Below, in pieces: positions 755 through 38,230 of a stretch of DNA of 38,230 bases. This DNA is from a virus: positions 1 to 38,230 of IMG/VR virus record IMGVR_UViG_3300042924_007028, one strand, 5' to 3'. The number at the start of each line of letters is the position of its first letter. Position 1 is the first letter of the stretch. The position numbers were made by a program, and so were the translations under genes. The notes under the pieces were generated by a model. The model worked only from the letters and a program-made list of their open reading frames with translations, was not told the DNA's origin and made no database searches.

Positions 755-775
755 TTGCAACCTCCGGAGACGACC

Positions 776-2101
776 ATGGAATATTCTGCCAAAACTGTAC
801 GTTCTGCGATGAAGGCAAAGGCAAAACGCCTCTCCTCCACCGACCCACAAAAAAAGGTTGACTCGTCAACTTGGTCGCCTTCCGAGCCGTTGAACACGGA
901 TGTTCAAACTGGCATGCGTCCATTGAGCAAGCGCTCATACAAAAAAGGCGGCAAAGTCGTCGGCAAAGCGGATGGCATAAAGGCGGCAGATCGCGCTGAT
1001 CGGATGCCCCGCAAGTCGGGCGGTCGTGCAGAACGCTACCTCACTCCTGACAACCTGATCAACCGTGATCAGAAGATGGCGAATGAGGTTCGCGAAGGCG
1101 GCAAGGCGCACGTTGGCGGATTGAAGCATGGCGGCAAAGCCAAGAAGTTCGGCGGTGGTCCAATCGGCGAGAACCCAATTAATCAGCAGAACCAGATGAT
1201 GGGTCGAGCTGCGGGTGCGATGAAGAAGGGCGGTCGTGCAAAACATGCAACCAAGGGCAGCGTTCCTTTGCCTCCGGTTATGCCTTTGAGCATGAAAGAA
1301 GAGCGCGAATCGAACGCACGTGAAGATGCTTTGATCGAAAGCATCGCTGCTCGCAAAGCAGCAGAAGATGCTGAAAAGCGTCGCGCAGCCAATGCGGCAG
1401 CTTTCGATGCAGATCAAGTCAAGGCTCGTCAGGATGTTTATGGCGTCACTGGTCAGAAGCGCGGCGGCAAGGTCAAGTTCGAAGGCTCCGCGAAGGATGA
1501 AGCCCAAGATAAAAAGCTCGCTGCCAAGCGCGGCATGACCATGAAGCAGTGGGAAGCGTCGAAGGCTGACACGAAGCACGACAAGCAGGAGTCCATGAAG
1601 GGCTTGAAAAAAGGCGGCAAAGCGGAACATGCTGCCGATTGCTCATGCAAACAGTGCGGCGGCGGTCGCACAATGAAATACAGCGGCGGCGGCGTGTTCT
1701 CTGGCAACTCAACAACCAAGGTTCCTGGAGTTGTTGGCGGTCGCAAAGCTCACGCAAAGGGCGGCAAAGTTGGCAAGGGCAAAGGCAAGGGCAAGACGCA
1801 CATCAATATCATCATTGGTGCGCACGGGAGCCCTGCTGGCGGCGGCATGATGCCGAATGCACCAGTTCCTGCTCCAATGTCCCCGAGAACACCTCCAATG
1901 CCTCAAGGTGGGCCTCCAATGCCACCTCCAGGAATGATGCCTCCAGGAGCTGGCGGTCCTCCGCCAGGAATGATGCCCCCTCCAGGAATGATGCCACGGA
2001 GATACGGTGGTCGTGCGACCCACGTCATTGATCATGCTGCTGGCGGAGGTTTGGGTCGGTTGGAAAAGGTTAAGGCTTACGGTCTGGCTGGACCAAAATA
2101 A
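776..2101 (+). CDS. Large Lys/Gly-rich low-complexity protein with GGK repeats
   Basis: The product is 441 residues. I chose ATG 776 because GGAG at 766-769 sits 6 bases upstream; the frame is open to a TTG at 755. The protein is strongly basic and built around about ten copies of a (K/R)xGG(K/R) motif (KKGGKVVGK, HGGKAKKFGGG, MKKGGRAKH, KRGGKVKF, LKKGGKAEH). A three-cysteine cluster CSCKQC lies near residue 290. The C-terminal fifth is Pro/Gly/Met rich with repeated PPGMM units. The segment RADRMPRKSGGR recurs almost exactly in the small protein at 7139-7414. Composition suggests nucleic-acid binding or a disordered internal virion protein; that is inference. A role as head or ejection protein is possible. 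Confidence is high for a gene, low for function. Confidence 0.85.
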   Translation: MEYSAKTVRSAMKAKAKRLSSTDPQKKVDSSTWSPSEPLNTDVQTGMRPLSKRSYKKGGKVVGKADGIKAADRADRMPRKSGGRAERYLTPDNLINRDQKMANEVREGGKAHVGGLKHGGKAKKFGGGPIGENPINQQNQMMGRAAGAMKKGGRAKHATKGSVPLPPVMPLSMKEERESNAREDALIESIAARKAAEDAEKRRAANAAAFDADQVKARQDVYGVTGQKRGGKVKFEGSAKDEAQDKKLAAKRGMTMKQWEASKADTKHDKQESMKGLKKGGKAEHAADCSCKQCGGGRTMKYSGGGVFSGNSTTKVPGVVGGRKAHAKGGKVGKGKGKGKTHINIIIGAHGSPAGGGMMPNAPVPAPMSPRTPPMPQGGPPMPPPGMMPPGAGGPPPGMMPPPGMMPRRYGGRATHVIDHAAGGGLGRLEKVKAYGLAGPK

Positions 2102-4247: not shown

Positions 4248-4281
4248 AAAGGGGCAGAAAATAAAAACATCTGCCCCTTTT
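4248..4281 (+). terminator. Rho-independent terminator before the capsid operon
   Basis: AAAGGGGCAGA (4248-4258) pairs with TCTGCCCCTTT (4270-4280), an 11-bp perfect stem with an 11-base loop, followed by TTTTCATTT. This separates the scaffold unit from the decoration/capsid unit and is a good candidate for a partial terminator that sets relative expression. Confidence 0.85.
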
Positions 4282-4312
4282 CATTTGCATTTTTTCAGGC
4301 ATAATACCCAAT

Positions 4313-4374
4313 AGTCTTCCCTCGGTGTGGAAGATTCGAATTTTTCCCGTTTCACAGTCGCCTCGGTGTGCGAT
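4313..4374 (+). promoter_or_regulatory. Tandem hairpins with identical CTCGGTGT loops in the capsid leader
   Basis: Two stem-loops lie in the 124-base leader of the decoration/capsid genes. Hairpin 1: TCTTCC (4315-4320), loop CTCGGTGT (4321-4328), GGAAGA (4329-4334), extendable by a G-T and an A-T pair. Hairpin 2: TCGC (4358-4361), the same loop CTCGGTGT (4362-4369), GCGA (4370-4373), plus one G-T pair. The stems differ in sequence but both pair, while the loop octamer is unchanged, which is the pattern expected of an RNA recognition element. A GAGGAG ribosome binding site (4391-4396) follows 18 bases later. No convincing sigma70 promoter was found between the terminator and the hairpins. The function is unknown; translational control, RNA processing or protein binding are possible. 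Confidence 0.55.
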
Positions 4375-4405
4375 GATGGAAACTCTCTGAGAGGAGAATC
4401 CCGTC

Positions 4406-5029
4406 ATGGCAAACACTGCTGCCTATTTCGGTTTCACGCAGTATCAGGGTGGCGCAGGTGGAGCTCCGACTTTTGCACAGTCGACTCGCCGAATCGCTTC
4501 TGGTAACACGACACCCATTTACACTGGCGACCCCGTTATGCCTGTTGTTAGCACTGCTAACGGCTACATAACTCAAGGTGCCGCTGGTACAACCCGTCTT
4601 GATGGTATTTTTGTTGGTTGCAAATACCTCAACACTTCCCTCGGTCGTACCGTATTTTCACCATACTGGCCTGGATCTGGAGCAACTGGTGACGTAGAGG
4701 CTTACGTCATTGATGATCCAAGCGTAAGGTTCCTCGTTCAGACGAGTTTTGCTGGCGCACCGATGACTGGCACAGCGACCACGATGACTTCGGGCATCAT
4801 TGGTCAGTACGCACAGTTCACAATCGGTTCAGGCAATACCTCAACAGGTCGTTCAGGTGCATACCTTTCTTCCGTCGCTACAACCGTCACGTTCCCATTC
4901 ATTGTTGTTGATTACCAGATTAGCGGTAGCAACGGCGGTGATCCAACAACCCAGTACTGCAATGTCATCGTAGGATTCAATAACGAAATCTTCCGGTCGA
5001 ACGGTGCAGGCCCAACTGGCATTAGCTGA
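4406..5029 (+). CDS. Beta-rich structural protein next to the capsid gene (possible decoration protein)
   Basis: The product is 207 residues from ATG 4406 (GAGGAG at 4391-4396). It has no charged clusters and is rich in Gly, Thr, Ser, Val and Ile, typical of a beta-sandwich virion protein. Features include SGNTTPIYTGDPVMPVVSTANGY near residues 32-54 and DGIFVGCKYLN near 67-77; this spacing resembles small phage head proteins that lie just before the major capsid gene. Motifs and position suggest a capsid decoration or minor head protein. It is the first gene after the twin-hairpin leader and is 13 bases from the capsid gene. No catalytic motif is visible. Confidence 0.7.
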   Translation: MANTAAYFGFTQYQGGAGGAPTFAQSTRRIASGNTTPIYTGDPVMPVVSTANGYITQGAAGTTRLDGIFVGCKYLNTSLGRTVFSPYWPGSGATGDVEAYVIDDPSVRFLVQTSFAGAPMTGTATTMTSGIIGQYAQFTIGSGNTSTGRSGAYLSSVATTVTFPFIVVDYQISGSNGGDPTTQYCNVIVGFNNEIFRSNGAGPTGIS

Positions 5030-5042
5030 GGAGTAAGGTATT

Positions 5043-5957
5043 ATGGCTGTTAATCTCTCACAGATCAGAGACCTTCTCCTTCCAGGTCTCCGTGGCGTCG
5101 AAGGCAAGTACGAGATGATCCCATCTCAGTACGACAAGATCTTCACAAAGCACGATTCAAAAATGGCTCTCGAGCGTACCGCTGAAATGCGCTACCTCGG
5201 CCTTGCGCAGCTGAAGACCGAAGGTGGTCAGACTGCATTTGATTCGGGTGCTGGTGAACGGTTCATCTACAACCAAGAGCACACTGAAATCGCTCTCGGT
5301 TACGCGATCACCCGTAAAGCAATCGATGACAACCTCTACAAGACCCAGTTCCAGCCATCCAACCTCGGCCTGACGGAATCTTTCCACCAGACCAAGGAAA
5401 TTTATGGCGCGAACGTTTTGAACACAGCAACGACCTACAACGCTTCGATTGGCGGTGACGGTGTGGCACTTTGCTCCACGGCGCATCCAATTGACGGCAG
5501 CACCGTCGCAAACACCCCATCGGTTCAGGTTGACCTCAATGAAGCAACGCTCTTGAATAGCATGATTGCTATTCGGACGAACTTCAAAGATCAGGCCGGA
5601 TTGAAGGTGTTCGCACGTGGTCGCAAGCTCGTCGTTCCTCCTCAGCTTGAGCCAGTCGCAATTCGTTTGACGAAGACCGAACTGCGTCCAGGTACTGCGG
5701 ACAACGATGTGAACGCGATCATGACAACGGCTGGTGGTCTCAGCGAAGGCTACATGGTTAACGACTTCCTCACCTCCGCTTATGCTTGGTTCTTGCTGAC
5801 CAACATTGACGGTCTGTCGTACATGGAACGTATCAAGTTCGAAACCGATATGCAGGTTGACTTCGTTACTGACAACCTGTTGGTCAAGGGCTACGAGCGT
5901 TATTCCTTCGGTTACTACAACTGGCGTTCGATCTTCGGCTCATTCCCAACCTCGTAA
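5043..5957 (+). CDS. Major capsid protein (HK97 fold, Mu gpT-like family)
   Basis: The product is 304 residues from ATG 5043 (GAGGAG just upstream). The sequence follows the gpT-like major head subunit pattern: an N-terminal helical region, LKTEGGQTAFDSGAGERF (E-loop/beta region near 58-75), ALGYAITRKAIDDNLY near 84-99, a P-domain helix region, and the A-domain signature KVFARGRKLVVPPQLEPVA near 190-210 followed by AWFLLTNIDGLSYMER. The C-terminal FGYYNWRSIFGS is typical of this family. It forms the icosahedral shell; assembly likely uses the scaffold-like protein and perhaps the GroES-like protein upstream. The small size and lack of an obvious N-terminal delta domain fit a separate scaffold. 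Confidence 0.9.
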   Translation: MAVNLSQIRDLLLPGLRGVEGKYEMIPSQYDKIFTKHDSKMALERTAEMRYLGLAQLKTEGGQTAFDSGAGERFIYNQEHTEIALGYAITRKAIDDNLYKTQFQPSNLGLTESFHQTKEIYGANVLNTATTYNASIGGDGVALCSTAHPIDGSTVANTPSVQVDLNEATLLNSMIAIRTNFKDQAGLKVFARGRKLVVPPQLEPVAIRLTKTELRPGTADNDVNAIMTTAGGLSEGYMVNDFLTSAYAWFLLTNIDGLSYMERIKFETDMQVDFVTDNLLVKGYERYSFGYYNWRSIFGSFPTS

Positions 5958-7138: not shown

Positions 7139-7414
7139 ATGAAGGGTCATAAGGGTAAGATGAATTCCCCTAAGAAAGGGAATTTTGCAATGGACAAGGC
7201 TCCGTCCGACGTTTACGAAGGCGGTTCTTCGAACGTCGTGAAGGAAGCCAAGGCCAAGAAGCATGGCGGCAAGGCAATGGGCGGCAAATCAATGCCTCGC
7301 GCTGACCGGATGCCACGCAAGGCTGGTGGACGCACGGGTTCGAACATGAACCCACTTTCGTCTGCCCACGCAGGAACGGCTCCAAAGGGCCGCTCTGGCA
7401 TGCAAATGAACTAA
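7139..7414 (+). CDS. Small basic GG-motif protein
   Basis: The product is 91 residues from ATG 7139 (TTAGGG upstream). It is Lys/Gly rich and probably disordered, with KKHGGKAMGGKSMP and RADRMPRKAGGR; the latter repeats RADRMPRKSGGR of the 776-2101 product with one change. No other domain is visible. Shared motifs with other virion proteins suggest a packaged or DNA-associated role, but this is inference. A strong hairpin follows the stop codon. Confidence 0.75.
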   Translation: MKGHKGKMNSPKKGNFAMDKAPSDVYEGGSSNVVKEAKAKKHGGKAMGGKSMPRADRMPRKAGGRTGSNMNPLSSAHAGTAPKGRSGMQMN

Positions 7415-7420
7415 AAAGTC

Positions 7421-7440
7421 GGGGGAGCTTCGGCTCCCCC
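7421..7440 (+). terminator. Stem-loop with UUCG tetraloop
   Basis: GGGGGAGC (7421-7428), TTCG loop (7429-7432), GCTCCCCC (7433-7440), a perfect 8-bp stem closed by a very stable tetraloop, followed by TTCTCCTTC. The tail is T rich but interrupted, so partial termination or mRNA end protection is more likely than full termination. Confidence 0.75.
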
Positions 7441-33138: not shown

Positions 33139-35415
33139 TCACATGCTCGAGTTGGTTATGTCATTCGGCTTCTTCGCCGCTTTCCGCATTTCTTCATTGA
33201 GTGCCATCTTCCGCAACCCAACTTCTTCAGGATCGTCATCGGACTTCACGAGGCCGATGACGTTTTTTGTCATGCGAATTTTATGATTTGACTTCAGGAC
33301 ATTGAACATCTTATCATTCATCGCAGCAAGCTGAACACGTCCTCCGATGAGGAACCTGTCCTCGTACCAAAATGCGCCAACCTCGCGCATTGCTTTCCGG
33401 ATTTCCAGGTCCGTGTCGTACATTCTGCCCTGAATGGACGACCTCACCCACTCGACGATGTCTTTCATCGCCAGCACAACTGGATCCGGATGACGGTTCA
33501 ACGCCTCGGCAAGGATGGCGGCTTCTTGTTGACCTTCCGTGCGCGAGGCAACGATCAGCTCCTTCTTGCGTTCGGTCATGGGAGCAGGTTGGCCCTTCAT
33601 GACATAATCCCCGTAGCTCTCGGCCCATTGCTTGATGATGTTCAGGCCACCGCTCTTGAGCCAGTTGTGGAAACTTTCGAACTTGACCCGCGACCATTTT
33701 TCCTCGGTGACTTCGGGATAAAACCAACGCCGATCGTCCTCCTCAATTTTCAGCGCACGCATCGAATTCGAACAAGCGAAAACATGACACCAATTCTCAA
33801 TGACGTAGGGACGCTGATATTTCTCGTTCACTTCGACCTCACGGTCGGTGATGGCGGATTTCAGCTTGTTGTAGGCTTTCCATGAGTGACCGGAATAAAT
33901 CTCATTGATCACGATGAGCCGCTTGTTCGCGAGCCATCCGTTGAACTCGGACTGGACGATTTGGTTCTCGGTCGGAAACCCAACGTTTTGCATCCCCACC
34001 AACGGCCCAAGGATCGACGAGCCAAGCGTTGTCTTGCCGACACCTTGACGCTCGCTCACCAGCAACAACCCATACTCCATTCTCACGTCGAGCCGCGCGA
34101 TCAACGTTGCGCACCACCGCAATGCCTCTTTCAGTTCGCTCTCGTTCGGAAACATGTATTGCATGAACTCAAGGAACGGCTCGGCGGATCCTGGTTTGCT
34201 TTTCACGTGGGTTGGGGTGTGGAGGTTGATGGCGGAGGTTGTGTTGTCGGTCACGACCTTACCTTTGATGTCCGGACGGTAGCAGAGCTTTGCGGAACGA
34301 CCGTTGTATGCCTTCACGATGAGCTGAGACGTTGAGTTGGTATTCGAGAACGCCGAGAGCATCTTGTTCATGATGTTTTCGGCACGGATGATTTCCGGCA
34401 TTTCCGTGCAGACAAAAATGTCAGCTTCTTCGACATATGTCCACATTTCCTTGAAGTTCTTGCGGAGGACGGTCGTTGGTTTGCCTTTTGGGTTTGGGAT
34501 TTGATCTGTGGCCCATGTTGCGGGATGGAGGCAGCTGCGGAAGGAGGGGCCAGTGTAATATTCCCGACCTTCGACCTGACGGAACATTGACCGAGGGAAC
34601 TCATCCGCGAGGTCGAACCCTTGGGGCCACTCACTTGTGAACTGAACATGAAACGTTGGGATGCGGAGGTGATAAGCAATCGCGGGAACTGCCGACAGTC
34701 CTGGAGCATCATTGTCGGAAACAATATAAGCCCGTTTCACGCCGATCTTTTGCAGAATGGACCAATCCGTGCGCGATGGGCTCAAAGCCCCTCCAATCCA
34801 CCCGAGATGCGCTGCTGCGGTCAATTCATCACCCCAAGGGTGCGCCGCGAGCTTTTTCTTGTCCGCTGGCGAATTCCCATGGACCATTCGGCTCATCGCC
34901 CGAGCAGCTTTCGCGCCTTCATGAATGAACACAGTCGTGAAATCCCCAATCATGTCCGTTCCCCAAATCGGCAACGGCCCTTCGGGTTCCATCTTGCGCC
35001 ATTGGCCGTCGTCCCAATATGTCCACGGGACGTAGCGTTTTTCTCCGCCGCCGAGATCGACCCGAGTTTGAAGCATGATGATTTCGTTGTTTTTGTTCCG
35101 AAACTCAAAACGATTTTCCGCAGGGATCTCTTTCAACTCGCTCGGCATATCCACCAGCGTTTTCAGCATCCGCATCTGGGGCCACTGGACGCTTTGGCAA
35201 TCGACTTCAATGGCGAGCTTTTCTTTTTCGGTCGGGGCGTAATTCGCGGGAGCTTTCACGGCTCCTGTTGACTCAATCGAGATGACCGCAATGTCTTCCC
35301 AATATGCGCCTTTGTTTTCCCGCACGACTGCTGCTCGCAAAGAGCGAGGCTCTGCTCCGATCCGTTTCAGGTAGGCGGCAACGGCTGGAATTTCGTAGAG
35401 TGACTTAATCTTCAT
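33139..35415 (-). CDS. Primase-helicase with TOPRIM-like and SF3 (DUF5906-type) domains
   Basis: The product is 758 residues from the ATG at 35415 (GAGGAAAT upstream), overlapping the polymerase stop by 11 bases. The N-terminal half has a TOPRIM-like domain: FIHEGAKAARA (Glu166) and YIVSDNDAPG (Asp234, Asp236). The second half has a superfamily 3-type ATPase: LLLVSERQGVGKTT (Walker A Lys461), then LIVINEIYSGHSWKAYNKLK (B-like), a sensor VFACSN and DDRRWFYPEV, as in P4/D5-like phage helicases. It probably lays primers and unwinds DNA for the phage DnaE polymerase encoded just upstream. Confidence 0.85.
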   Translation of the reverse strand: MKIKSLYEIPAVAAYLKRIGAEPRSLRAAVVRENKGAYWEDIAVISIESTGAVKAPANYAPTEKEKLAIEVDCQSVQWPQMRMLKTLVDMPSELKEIPAENRFEFRNKNNEIIMLQTRVDLGGGEKRYVPWTYWDDGQWRKMEPEGPLPIWGTDMIGDFTTVFIHEGAKAARAMSRMVHGNSPADKKKLAAHPWGDELTAAAHLGWIGGALSPSRTDWSILQKIGVKRAYIVSDNDAPGLSAVPAIAYHLRIPTFHVQFTSEWPQGFDLADEFPRSMFRQVEGREYYTGPSFRSCLHPATWATDQIPNPKGKPTTVLRKNFKEMWTYVEEADIFVCTEMPEIIRAENIMNKMLSAFSNTNSTSQLIVKAYNGRSAKLCYRPDIKGKVVTDNTTSAINLHTPTHVKSKPGSAEPFLEFMQYMFPNESELKEALRWCATLIARLDVRMEYGLLLVSERQGVGKTTLGSSILGPLVGMQNVGFPTENQIVQSEFNGWLANKRLIVINEIYSGHSWKAYNKLKSAITDREVEVNEKYQRPYVIENWCHVFACSNSMRALKIEEDDRRWFYPEVTEEKWSRVKFESFHNWLKSGGLNIIKQWAESYGDYVMKGQPAPMTERKKELIVASRTEGQQEAAILAEALNRHPDPVVLAMKDIVEWVRSSIQGRMYDTDLEIRKAMREVGAFWYEDRFLIGGRVQLAAMNDKMFNVLKSNHKIRMTKNVIGLVKSDDDPEEVGLRKMALNEEMRKAAKKPNDITNSSM

Positions 35416-38230
35416 TACTGATTTCCTCTGTGGTTGTTTCTTCGTCCATGAATCCAATAAAACGTATTTGCGATACGCGGATCATCCGGAAGTCCGGAGG
35501 CACGCGACCTTTTATTGCATAAAGTGCTTTTCCTGGACGACCACGGTCAACAATCTCCTGACCGAGTCGTTCAAATTCAAATCGATCGATTTTTCCAAAA
35601 ATGCGGTCGGTGTCGTCCCCAAGCGTCAAATTCAACGATTGGGTTTGGCCTTTGACTTCGTAGCCTCGCTTGGCAACGTTCACAGCTTCATTCTCGTCGC
35701 GAGGTTTGATTTGTTGCGGTGTGACAAAAACCAGCACTTCGTAATCGAATCCCTTCGTCACCACGTCGATGACTTTTGTTGAAGGGGTGTGAATATTTTT
35801 CTCGGAAGGATCTGGCATGATCCGCTTGAACGCATCCTGAATTGGCCAGAGGCTTTCGATTTCCGTCTTGGGGTTGAGCAACAGCTTTTCGGCCCTCGCA
35901 GGAAGCGGCTCCCCTCTTGCCCTTGATGACATGATCTGCTGAACGAGCTTCGGGCCGATGCCTTTCACGTTTTGCACAGGGCCGATGAGGGCTTGCTTCC
36001 CGTCCACGAACCCGACCGTCCACTTGTCAATCGAGAGGTCTTTGTCGACGGGGACGTACGCAATTCCTTCCGCATGCATCTCGCGCAGGATCTTGATTTG
36101 CTTTTCCGGATCCGGCTCATGGGTCAAGGTCGCCGCCGCAAACTGCAGCGGAAAGTGCGCCTTCATGTATGCGCACCAATATGAGATGATGCCGTAGGCC
36201 ACCGCATGCGAGCGATTGAAACACATCGCTCCATAAGCGCACAGGTCATCCCAAATCCGGTCGAGCATTGGGCCGCTCATTCCGCGCTTCGCGGCACCCG
36301 CTTTGAACTTGTTGCCGTATTGATCAAAGAACTCCTTGCCGAGGGATTTGCTCATTGCTTTGCGGAGAGTGGAGACATCTTCCCATGACATGTCTCCAAT
36401 CTCACGACAGATTTGCATCACCTGCTCTTGATAAGCCACCATCCCGAGCGTCGACTTCAAATAAGGCTCAAACGTTGGATGGGGATATTCCACCGCTTTG
36501 CCGTTCTTGCGCTTCGTCCATTCATTCGTCCCGCCCGAAGCCATTGGTCCAGGACGCGCCAACGAGGTGACGGAGATGATGTCCTCAATGTCCTCGATTT
36601 TGATTTGATTGCAAATCGATTGCAGAGCTGGGCCATTGAACTGGAAAATGCCGGAGAACTGCTTCGTGTTGATGATTTCGAACGAGGCCTTGTCATCCAA
36701 CGGAACTGTCTCAAGGAAGTGGATATCTTTTCCAGCCATCAGCAATGAGTCCTCGAACACCGAAAGCTGGGTCAACCCAAGCGCATCGATCTTCAGCAGG
36801 TTCAAGTCCTCCGCATCTTTTTTGTCGCATTGGGTTGCGCCTGTCCGCGCATCCACCGCAACATATTCCGTGACAGGCTCGGCAGTGACCACGATCCCTG
36901 CGGCATGCTGAGAATAATGCCGAGGATGGCCCTCCATCTGCGCCGCGACAAGGATCTCAGGGTATTTCTCCATGAGCTCTTTTCCTGCCGCGCTCGAGGT
37001 GAAGGTGTCCTCGAGAGTGTTCAGGGCACGACTGTCACCGGAGGAACGGATGATGAGGGAGTCCAACACCTTCGTGCATAACCACTTCGGCACACCCAAA
37101 GCAGTTCCGGCTTCTTCGATTGCTGACCTCGGGCGATAAAGCGCAACCGTCCCGAGACGAGCCACGTGATCTTTGCCGTATTTTTCTTCCATGTATTCGA
37201 AAACGAGGTGACGGTTTTGATCCGAGAAATCTAAATCAATGTCCGGCAAATCGTTACGAGTGATGTCGATGAACCGCTCGAACAATAGGTCGTATTTTAT
37301 TGGGTCGATCGTGGTGATCTCGAGAAGGAAGCAAACCAGCGAACCGCATGAGCTTCCCCGTGCAGGGCCGCAGATCATCCGCTCACGCGCCCAGTGCATC
37401 ATGTCGGCAATGATGTAGAAATAATCCTCGAATTCTTTTTCCGCGATGAGGCTCAATTCCCTGTCGAGCCTTGGGCCATAAACCTCATCCAATTCAATGC
37501 CGAGCTTCTTGGCCCCGTCCAAACACATCTGGCGTAGCGAGAGGGGCTTCGAGGGAGTGAGGAGAGTTCCGGCCTTCAACACCGCTTTGCAGGCTTCCTG
37601 CGACTTCTGGAGGTTCGCGACGGCGGACGCAATCATTTCCTCGGAGGCGAACCGCTTCACCGACTTTTCCCATTCCTCCTGAGAGAGGATCCATTGGGGA
37701 TAGGTTTGGGTGGAGGAGTTTCGGCCCATGACGACTTGATAGAAACTTTCATCCTCCTCAAACGTGAACTTGTTGTCGGAGCATTGGATGAACGCATGGC
37801 CGAGCTCTTTGGCTTCCGTCACAAACCCTTTCGAGAGGCTTGGGCTCAGGCCGATGAACAGGTCGGGTTGGGGCTGAAATTTATCGAGCAGGGCTCTCGA
37901 GCCAGCAATCTTGATCACGCCCTCGACTTCCATGGCTTGTTCATACGTCAACAATGGCTCGTAGCGAAACTGATTTGTCGCGAGGTACAAAAGCTCGTTG
38001 ATCGAGCGGAGATCATCCTTCGCGAAGAACGTCCAGTGATCGAAAATTGGCTTCTTGGCATTGAGGGAGGGAGTGACTGCAATTTCCACCCCGTAAATTG
38101 GTCTCAGGCCAGCCTTTTTGGCGAGCTTCGACCAACGGTTGAACCCGAACGTCGAGGCACGGTCGGAAATCGGCGCACAAGTCATGCCGACTTCCTGAAC
38201 CCGCTTCATAACATTCTCGATCATTCCCGC
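35405..38230 (-). CDS. dnaE: DNA polymerase III alpha subunit (DnaE-type, family C), partial
   Basis: The frame is open at the right edge, with about 941 residues visible; roughly the first 20-30 residues of the PHP domain are missing. The PHP remnant has PISDRASTFGFNRWSKLAKK where typical DnaE has a TDHG, so a metal ligand appears lost. The palm is intact: GPARGSSCGSLVCFLLEI, then the catalytic PDIDLDF (near 326-332). SLARPGPMASGG, CFNRSHAVAYG and a helix-hairpin-helix (GPVQNVKGIGPKLVQQI) follow. The C-terminal part is short and unlike the tau-binding region of bacterial DnaE. It is the likely replicative polymerase of this phage. Confidence 0.9.
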   Translation of the reverse strand, partial: AGMIENVMKRVQEVGMTCAPISDRASTFGFNRWSKLAKKAGLRPIYGVEIAVTPSLNAKKPIFDHWTFFAKDDLRSINELLYLATNQFRYEPLLTYEQAMEVEGVIKIAGSRALLDKFQPQPDLFIGLSPSLSKGFVTEAKELGHAFIQCSDNKFTFEEDESFYQVVMGRNSSTQTYPQWILSQEEWEKSVKRFASEEMIASAVANLQKSQEACKAVLKAGTLLTPSKPLSLRQMCLDGAKKLGIELDEVYGPRLDRELSLIAEKEFEDYFYIIADMMHWARERMICGPARGSSCGSLVCFLLEITTIDPIKYDLLFERFIDITRNDLPDIDLDFSDQNRHLVFEYMEEKYGKDHVARLGTVALYRPRSAIEEAGTALGVPKWLCTKVLDSLIIRSSGDSRALNTLEDTFTSSAAGKELMEKYPEILVAAQMEGHPRHYSQHAAGIVVTAEPVTEYVAVDARTGATQCDKKDAEDLNLLKIDALGLTQLSVFEDSLLMAGKDIHFLETVPLDDKASFEIINTKQFSGIFQFNGPALQSICNQIKIEDIEDIISVTSLARPGPMASGGTNEWTKRKNGKAVEYPHPTFEPYLKSTLGMVAYQEQVMQICREIGDMSWEDVSTLRKAMSKSLGKEFFDQYGNKFKAGAAKRGMSGPMLDRIWDDLCAYGAMCFNRSHAVAYGIISYWCAYMKAHFPLQFAAATLTHEPDPEKQIKILREMHAEGIAYVPVDKDLSIDKWTVGFVDGKQALIGPVQNVKGIGPKLVQQIMSSRARGEPLPARAEKLLLNPKTEIESLWPIQDAFKRIMPDPSEKNIHTPSTKVIDVVTKGFDYEVLVFVTPQQIKPRDENEAVNVAKRGYEVKGQTQSLNLTLGDDTDRIFGKIDRFEFERLGQEIVDRGRPGKALYAIKGRVPPDFRMIRVSQIRFIGFMDEETTTEEISNED

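Follow-up and report, generated by a model that had tools for sequence, protein, structure and literature searches.

The stretch of viral DNA considered here (38 230 nucleotides, referred to below as the window) carries, ahead of its capsid genes, two small hairpins with the same loop on different stems, which raises the question of whether the pair is a chance repeat or a regulatory RNA and, if the latter, what reads it. Comparison of related phages and folding of their leaders lead us to favour, at a probability of about 0.5, a two-site translational operator: a cis-acting 5' leader RNA of the capsid operon that would be bound in trans. As sequence comparison shows, the element consists of two (sometimes three) hairpins with independent stems and the same loop, C(YCGGY)G, present once per genome and always in the capsid leader.

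Both hairpins were read directly from the window: TCTTCC-CTCGGTGT-GGAAGA at 4315–4334 and TCGC-CTCGGTGT-GCGA at 4358–4373, the unit common to the two hairpins being the 10-mer CCTCGGTGTG. A preliminary description had reported twin hairpins with equal loop octamers and differing stems, 23 bases apart, lying after a terminator and before the GAGGAG of the capsid-region genes, and the sequence confirmed each of these points. The order is terminator (4250–4281), promoter (4278–4305), hairpin 1, 23-base spacer, hairpin 2, ribosome site (GAGGAG) and start codon (4406), with the predicted transcription start at about 4311–4313, at the foot of hairpin 1. The features are as follows.

4250–4281, + strand: intrinsic terminator (AGGGGCAGA/TCTGCCCCT and a T-run) ending the upstream transcription unit; read from the sequence
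4278–4305, + strand: sigma-70-like promoter, TTTTCA-16-CATAAT; 9/12 matches
4313–4336, + strand: hairpin 1, stem AGTCTTCC/GGAAGATT, loop octamer CTCGGTGT, that is C(UCGGU)G plus a bulged U; from sequence, covariation and covariance model
4349–4383, + strand: hairpin 2 outer stem, GTTTC (4349–4353) with GAAAC (4379–4383); from sequence and covariation
Within 4349–4383, + strand: hairpin 2 internal loop, ACAG/UGAUG, between the outer and inner stems
4358–4373, + strand: hairpin 2 inner stem, TCGC (4358–4361) with GCGA (4370–4373), and loop CTCGGTGT (4362–4369)
4373–4407, + strand: predicted start-codon-masking stem, ATGATGG (4373–4379) with CCGTCAT (4401–4407); thermodynamic prediction
4384–4397, + strand: predicted hairpin masking the Shine-Dalgarno sequence, TCTCT (4384–4388) with GGAGA (4393–4397), inside the start-masking stem; thermodynamic prediction
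4406–5029, + strand: gene controlled in the proposed model, a 207-amino-acid capsid-neighbour protein of unknown function (phrog_37556), named a decoration protein in the preliminary description
5043–5957, + strand: major capsid protein, 304 amino acids, second gene of the unit (phrog_371, major head protein), with a weak Pfam match to Mu gpT

The octamer CTCGGTGT by itself is unremarkable, with two matches in the window against 0.91 expected; the core C[CT]CGG[CT]G is found at 20 sites, of which only the twin ones have arms of at least four pairs (8 and 5). The fold of the whole leader was not unusually stable either (z = 0.33 and z = -0.92, single leader), so the evidence has to come from comparison and not from energy. 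A chance repeat was rejected since the twin is conserved in relatives, and it is this conservation, not the frequency of the octamer, that upholds the earlier view that the arrangement is hard to obtain by chance.

Relatives were collected by an IMG/VR search with the major capsid protein, which gave at least 600 candidate places, of which the best 80 were retrieved. Nearly every IMG/VR relative of this protein had the same twin in the same place, and the carriers number at least in the hundreds; the closest annotated phage, MW202675 (L003; Manatee Spring), has the twin with changed stems. Further leaders were added by a second capsid search and by pattern scans; invariance in hairpin 2 is partly by construction for leaders picked by hairpin-2 sequence, and the set found by capsid protein alone is less biased. 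Among the 78 distinct leaders of that set, 44 had two strict CGG hairpins, 19 had one, mostly together with a recognisable variant hairpin, and 15 had none. As assigned by eye, eight of those 15 were members of a diverged twin family (L016 type) and five had concertedly changed loops; the others were L419, with a different sequence common to both loops, and one mis-called gene. The L016-type leaders (L016, L021, L035, L036, L049, L056, L065 and L067) lie upstream of the same capsid genes and have twin hairpins with GG in the loops, the second being GGTT..GCAGTGC-YNGGC-GCA..AACC; they apparently have no terminator–promoter block, and the members tested gave weak covariance-model matches (E 1e-7 to 3e-3).

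The covariance model, built from 74 distinct leaders, matched once in the window and once in each of 12 other phage records, every time at the capsid leader (E about 7e-9 to 1e-24), the sole other match below E = 1 being a marginal one in L598 (E 0.65). A further 40 leaders, mainly divergent ones, were put to the model, and every one scored at E 3e-3 or better. Conservation of loop and pairing in relatives, for which the preliminary description had advised such a model, was thus found for both. No match was obtained beside the capsid regions of 11 distant capsid homologues; in distant relatives (Pelagibacter, Roseobacter, Caulobacter and Planktothrix phages), whose major capsid proteins are 31–43% identical, there was no such leader, and the gap before the homologous gene was mostly too short. 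Elsewhere in the window and the 12 long phage records no further copy rose above background. DNA hairpin promoters of the N4 type were rejected on this count, as several small hairpins genome-wide would be expected of them by comparison with the single site per genome here. The element also turned up on metagenome-assembled contigs whose assignment is to Gammaproteobacteria, Betaproteobacteria or Methylococcales, and two more, probably binning errors, carry it too; a genome scan for host copies gave mostly chance 19-mer matches, with true twins only in phage-like metagenome-assembled contigs.

The stems behave as RNA. Across the 74 distinct leaders, 94.8% of cells pair (81.6% when shuffled) and 11 of the 15 pairs change on both sides; double-changed cells numbered 170 (shuffles, 48; slid versions, no more than 37), and the covariation score of 0.438 exceeded both that of shuffles (0.181) and the highest for slid partners (0.124). 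Hairpin 1 occurs with 38 distinct arm pairs, which pair fully in 82% of cases as they stand and in 9% after an exchange of arms among phages. The 'second hairpin' of the preliminary description is present but turned out to be merely the tip of a longer stem (GTTTC/GAAAC, outer pairs 82–91% paired with double-sided changes) across a conserved internal loop; the inner stem is 99.7% paired and nearly invariant, with TCTC/GAGA, CCGC/GCGG and ATACG/CGTAT as natural alternatives. The relatives show compensatory changes at a fixed place before one gene, as is expected of a structured cis-regulatory RNA. A DNA operator was rejected, as the stems change with compensation and no symmetric DNA sequence is kept.

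At the core of the loop is C-YCGGY-G, in most cases accompanied by a bulged pyrimidine. The loop proper is C(YCGGY)G and the 3' bulge is optional, as the eighth loop base is absent in L148, L192, L073 and L384; the 8-base loop noted previously is identical in both hairpins, as stated, but in the window probably consists of a pentaloop, C(UCGGU)G, and, on its 3' side, a bulged U. Leaders L144, L155, L173 and L177 have a third hairpin with the same loop.

The most informative variation was in the loops themselves, where CGU, CGC or ACGAU has taken the place of CGG in the two hairpins of the same leader. In nine leaders hairpin 2 had a core other than CGG; hairpin 1 was also non-CGG in eight of these, and in seven the two cores were identical. 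The 2 × 2 table of loop cores (83, 1, 9 and 8) gives a Fisher p of 1e-6 for sequences that are not independent, kinship being uncorrected; a few of the nine cases confined to hairpin 1 are calls shifted by the script and not real changes. Matched loops were CGU/CGU (six times) and CGC/CGC, and others were CCRUCUG in both hairpins of L075 and CACGAUGC in both of L509; the concert is broken on the hairpin-2 side in L544 and L362, and on the hairpin-1 side in L387, L160 and L184. When mapped onto the tree built from the two capsid genes, the CGU loops require five changes, at least four of them forced by supported branches, although leaders may recombine as a block and the count of independent switches is to that extent uncertain. 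Gene conversion is unlikely given that the stems of hairpins 1 and 2 differ. Paired change of this kind is better evidence for loop recognition than simple conservation, and together with the compensatory pairing and the conserved loop it supports, at the level of sequence, the original suggestion of an RNA structure recognised through its loops.

What the two loops have in common could in principle be each other. The YCGG of CGG-type loops is self-complementary, and two such loops could dimerise by kissing through the palindrome CCGG; the CCGU, CCGC and ACGA loops, however, are not palindromes yet are conserved as pairs, so the loops do not simply kiss, and we regard this explanation as barely credible. 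A common trans-acting binder can, as judged from these sequences, account for the paired changes, and loop–loop kissing cannot. That binder might be a third RNA, of phage or host, rather than a protein, as one antisense partner would fit two identical loops that change together; but no such partner was found, and C1, Y6 and G7 are fixed and only the middle of the loop changes, as would suit recognition of a folded loop by a protein; a third RNA seems to us improbable. The position of the element directly before the capsid genes would also suit an autogenous operator bound by capsid protein in the manner of MS2 coat protein. Leader L081 is informative here, as its major capsid protein is identical to that of L141/L070 (0 differences) and both of its loops differ (CGU versus CGG), so that the major capsid protein does not set loop specificity and an autogenous operator becomes very improbable. 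The proteins at the position of the 207-amino-acid gene differ between the same phages at 7 of 217 residues; no residue in either protein tracked loop type perfectly.

Predicted promoters were found in relatives as in the window, with at least nine of 12 matches in 36% of leaders by comparison with 6.5% of shuffled sequence, and the terminator–promoter–hairpin order is the same in most of them. The distance from the -10 box to hairpin 1 is 6–11 nt, or 25–33 nt where an extra hairpin intervenes, and from this spacing the predicted transcript tends to begin with a hairpin. The extra hairpin between promoter and hairpin 1, which has a variable loop, was seen in L127, L130, L137, L154 and L163 among many leaders; four other leaders have the third copy of the conserved loop in its place. 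Hairpin 1 was itself flagged as terminator-like, but the sequence after it is CGAATTTTT, relatives do not keep the U-run and the true terminator lies just upstream. An upstream mini-ORF in the window (ATGATGGAAACTCTCTGA) was discounted, as by eye it is not kept with its stop in relatives.

The 5' placement admits two further explanations. One is a stabiliser or processing element, with a host RNase or chaperone as the binder of its loops, in which 5'-end hairpins would block pyrophosphate removal and RNase E entry, or would be RNase targets, and so set the lifetime of the capsid mRNA. In many leaders the first hairpin begins at about the predicted transcription start, or the extra hairpin fills that place, and protection of the mRNA has to be taken seriously, whether as a rival or as an additional role. 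A stem alone would protect, though, leaving the conserved loop, its concerted change and the elaborate hairpin 2 beside the ribosome site unaccounted for, and RNase III would need longer duplexes; we consider it unlikely as the principal function. The other is an antiterminator like put of phage HK022, in which nascent twin-hairpin RNA would bind RNA polymerase for read-through of late-operon terminators. HK022 putL has two stem-loops in about 70 nt (PMC9378689), and put lies, as here, near a promoter and at the 5' end of its transcript (PMC9378689), the transcript start being a predicted one in our case; there are also terminator-like sites downstream in the window (e.g. 7421–7440). The put sites differ, however, in sequence, in serving early operons and in acting on RNA polymerase, a conserved host target that sits poorly with loops swapped together among phages with nearly identical capsid proteins; and hairpin 2 adjoins the ribosome site. 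We know of no paired identical loops, or concerted duplicated ones, in put, and find an antiterminator of this kind distinctly unlikely.

The translational operator that we favour draws on predicted masking of the ribosome site. In thermodynamic folds from the predicted transcript start, the median pairing probability of the Shine-Dalgarno sequence was 0.986 across 96 leaders, against 0.62 at the start of the major capsid gene in the same phages. The start-masking stem is nearly invariant and has no significant covariation (6.15 pairs with its own arms, 6.01 with swapped arms), and it is absent in L376, L384, L394, L396 and L402. Its ATGATGG arm lies immediately 3' of hairpin 2's inner stem, and in the predicted folds the start-masking stem competes with the covarying outer stem. 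By default, in the sense of these folds, Shine-Dalgarno sequence and start codon would both be masked, the GG of ATGATGG being contested between the start-masking stem and full hairpin 2. Both loops would be bound at once by a single trans-acting factor, most probably a phage RNA-binding protein other than the major capsid protein, and this would explain their concerted evolution; held by both, the factor would select either full hairpin 2 or the start-masking stem and so switch translation of the first gene of the operon, the major capsid protein following by coupling. As to direction, we lean towards release over repression, as in the modelled folds the start-masking stem does not form together with hairpin 2's covarying outer stem. 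The 5'-terminal hairpin at the predicted transcript start may protect the mRNA as well. More tentatively, and with somewhat less confidence than the operator itself, a phage RNA-binding protein with evolvable loop specificity may read this twin-hairpin code and time capsid synthesis across a widespread freshwater phage group; the loops would then co-evolve with their binder like operator and repressor in fast-diverging immunity types.

To our knowledge, little has been described of post-transcriptional control of capsid genes in tailed dsDNA phages. Rfam 15 gave no family at its gathering cut-off in the window or in leaders L003, L587, L593, L607, L016 and L401, the weak matches at the leader all falling far below gathering scores, and a literature search, mostly of papers outside subscription, gave no description of a twin-hairpin element; the absence of a matching named element, already remarked on, thus holds for the sources searched. 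The MS2 and PP7 coat-protein operators are bulged hairpins with a small loop that control a phage gene, but belong to RNA phages and are bound by coat protein, by comparison with a dsDNA phage whose major capsid protein does not set the loop. CsrA/RsmA sites are repeated small hairpins with the same loop near a ribosome site, bound by a dimer; their loop is GGA, which is absent here, where the core is YCGNY. TwoAYGGAY, named for two AYGGAY sequences, has two hairpins with matching loops. It is listed as a candidate motif of other organisms (human gut, gamma-proteobacteria and Clostridiales; Weinberg 2010; PMC2864571). The loops here are CYCGGYGY and variants instead of AYGGAY, and Rfam gave no match to it. 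The gene 43 operator of T4/RB69, through which DNA polymerase regulates itself, is likewise a phage mRNA hairpin upstream of a ribosome site, with loop bases that are important for protein binding and a loop sequence that differs in some related phages (PMC3014915); it is a single hairpin before a replication gene with a known binder, as opposed to twin hairpins, a capsid operon and a putative one. None of the gene 43 operator, the RNA-phage coat operators, HK022 put and TwoAYGGAY shares the loop, the concerted twin loops and the place.

With an element this widespread and compensatory changes this clear, the paired switching of loops on freely drifting stems amounts to an evolutionary read-out of an RNA contact. 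It opens the way to a concrete search, among phage and host genes, for one that changes in step with the loop, and could lead to new orthogonal pairs of RNA-binding protein and hairpin like those of MS2 and PP7.

Some other features of these genomes were noted. A Pfam search gave no match for two + strand ORFs of the window (755–2101 and 7139–7414) that are rich in lysine and glycine, have the string ADRMPRK in common and are possible nucleic-acid binders. In MW202675 a tRNA gene (L003:5835–5908; Rfam RF00005) lies directly upstream of the capsid leader. The - strand of the window at 35405–38224 encodes a 939-amino-acid DNA polymerase (phrog_405, E 4e-209), whose sequence is that of the bacterial polymerase III alpha type.
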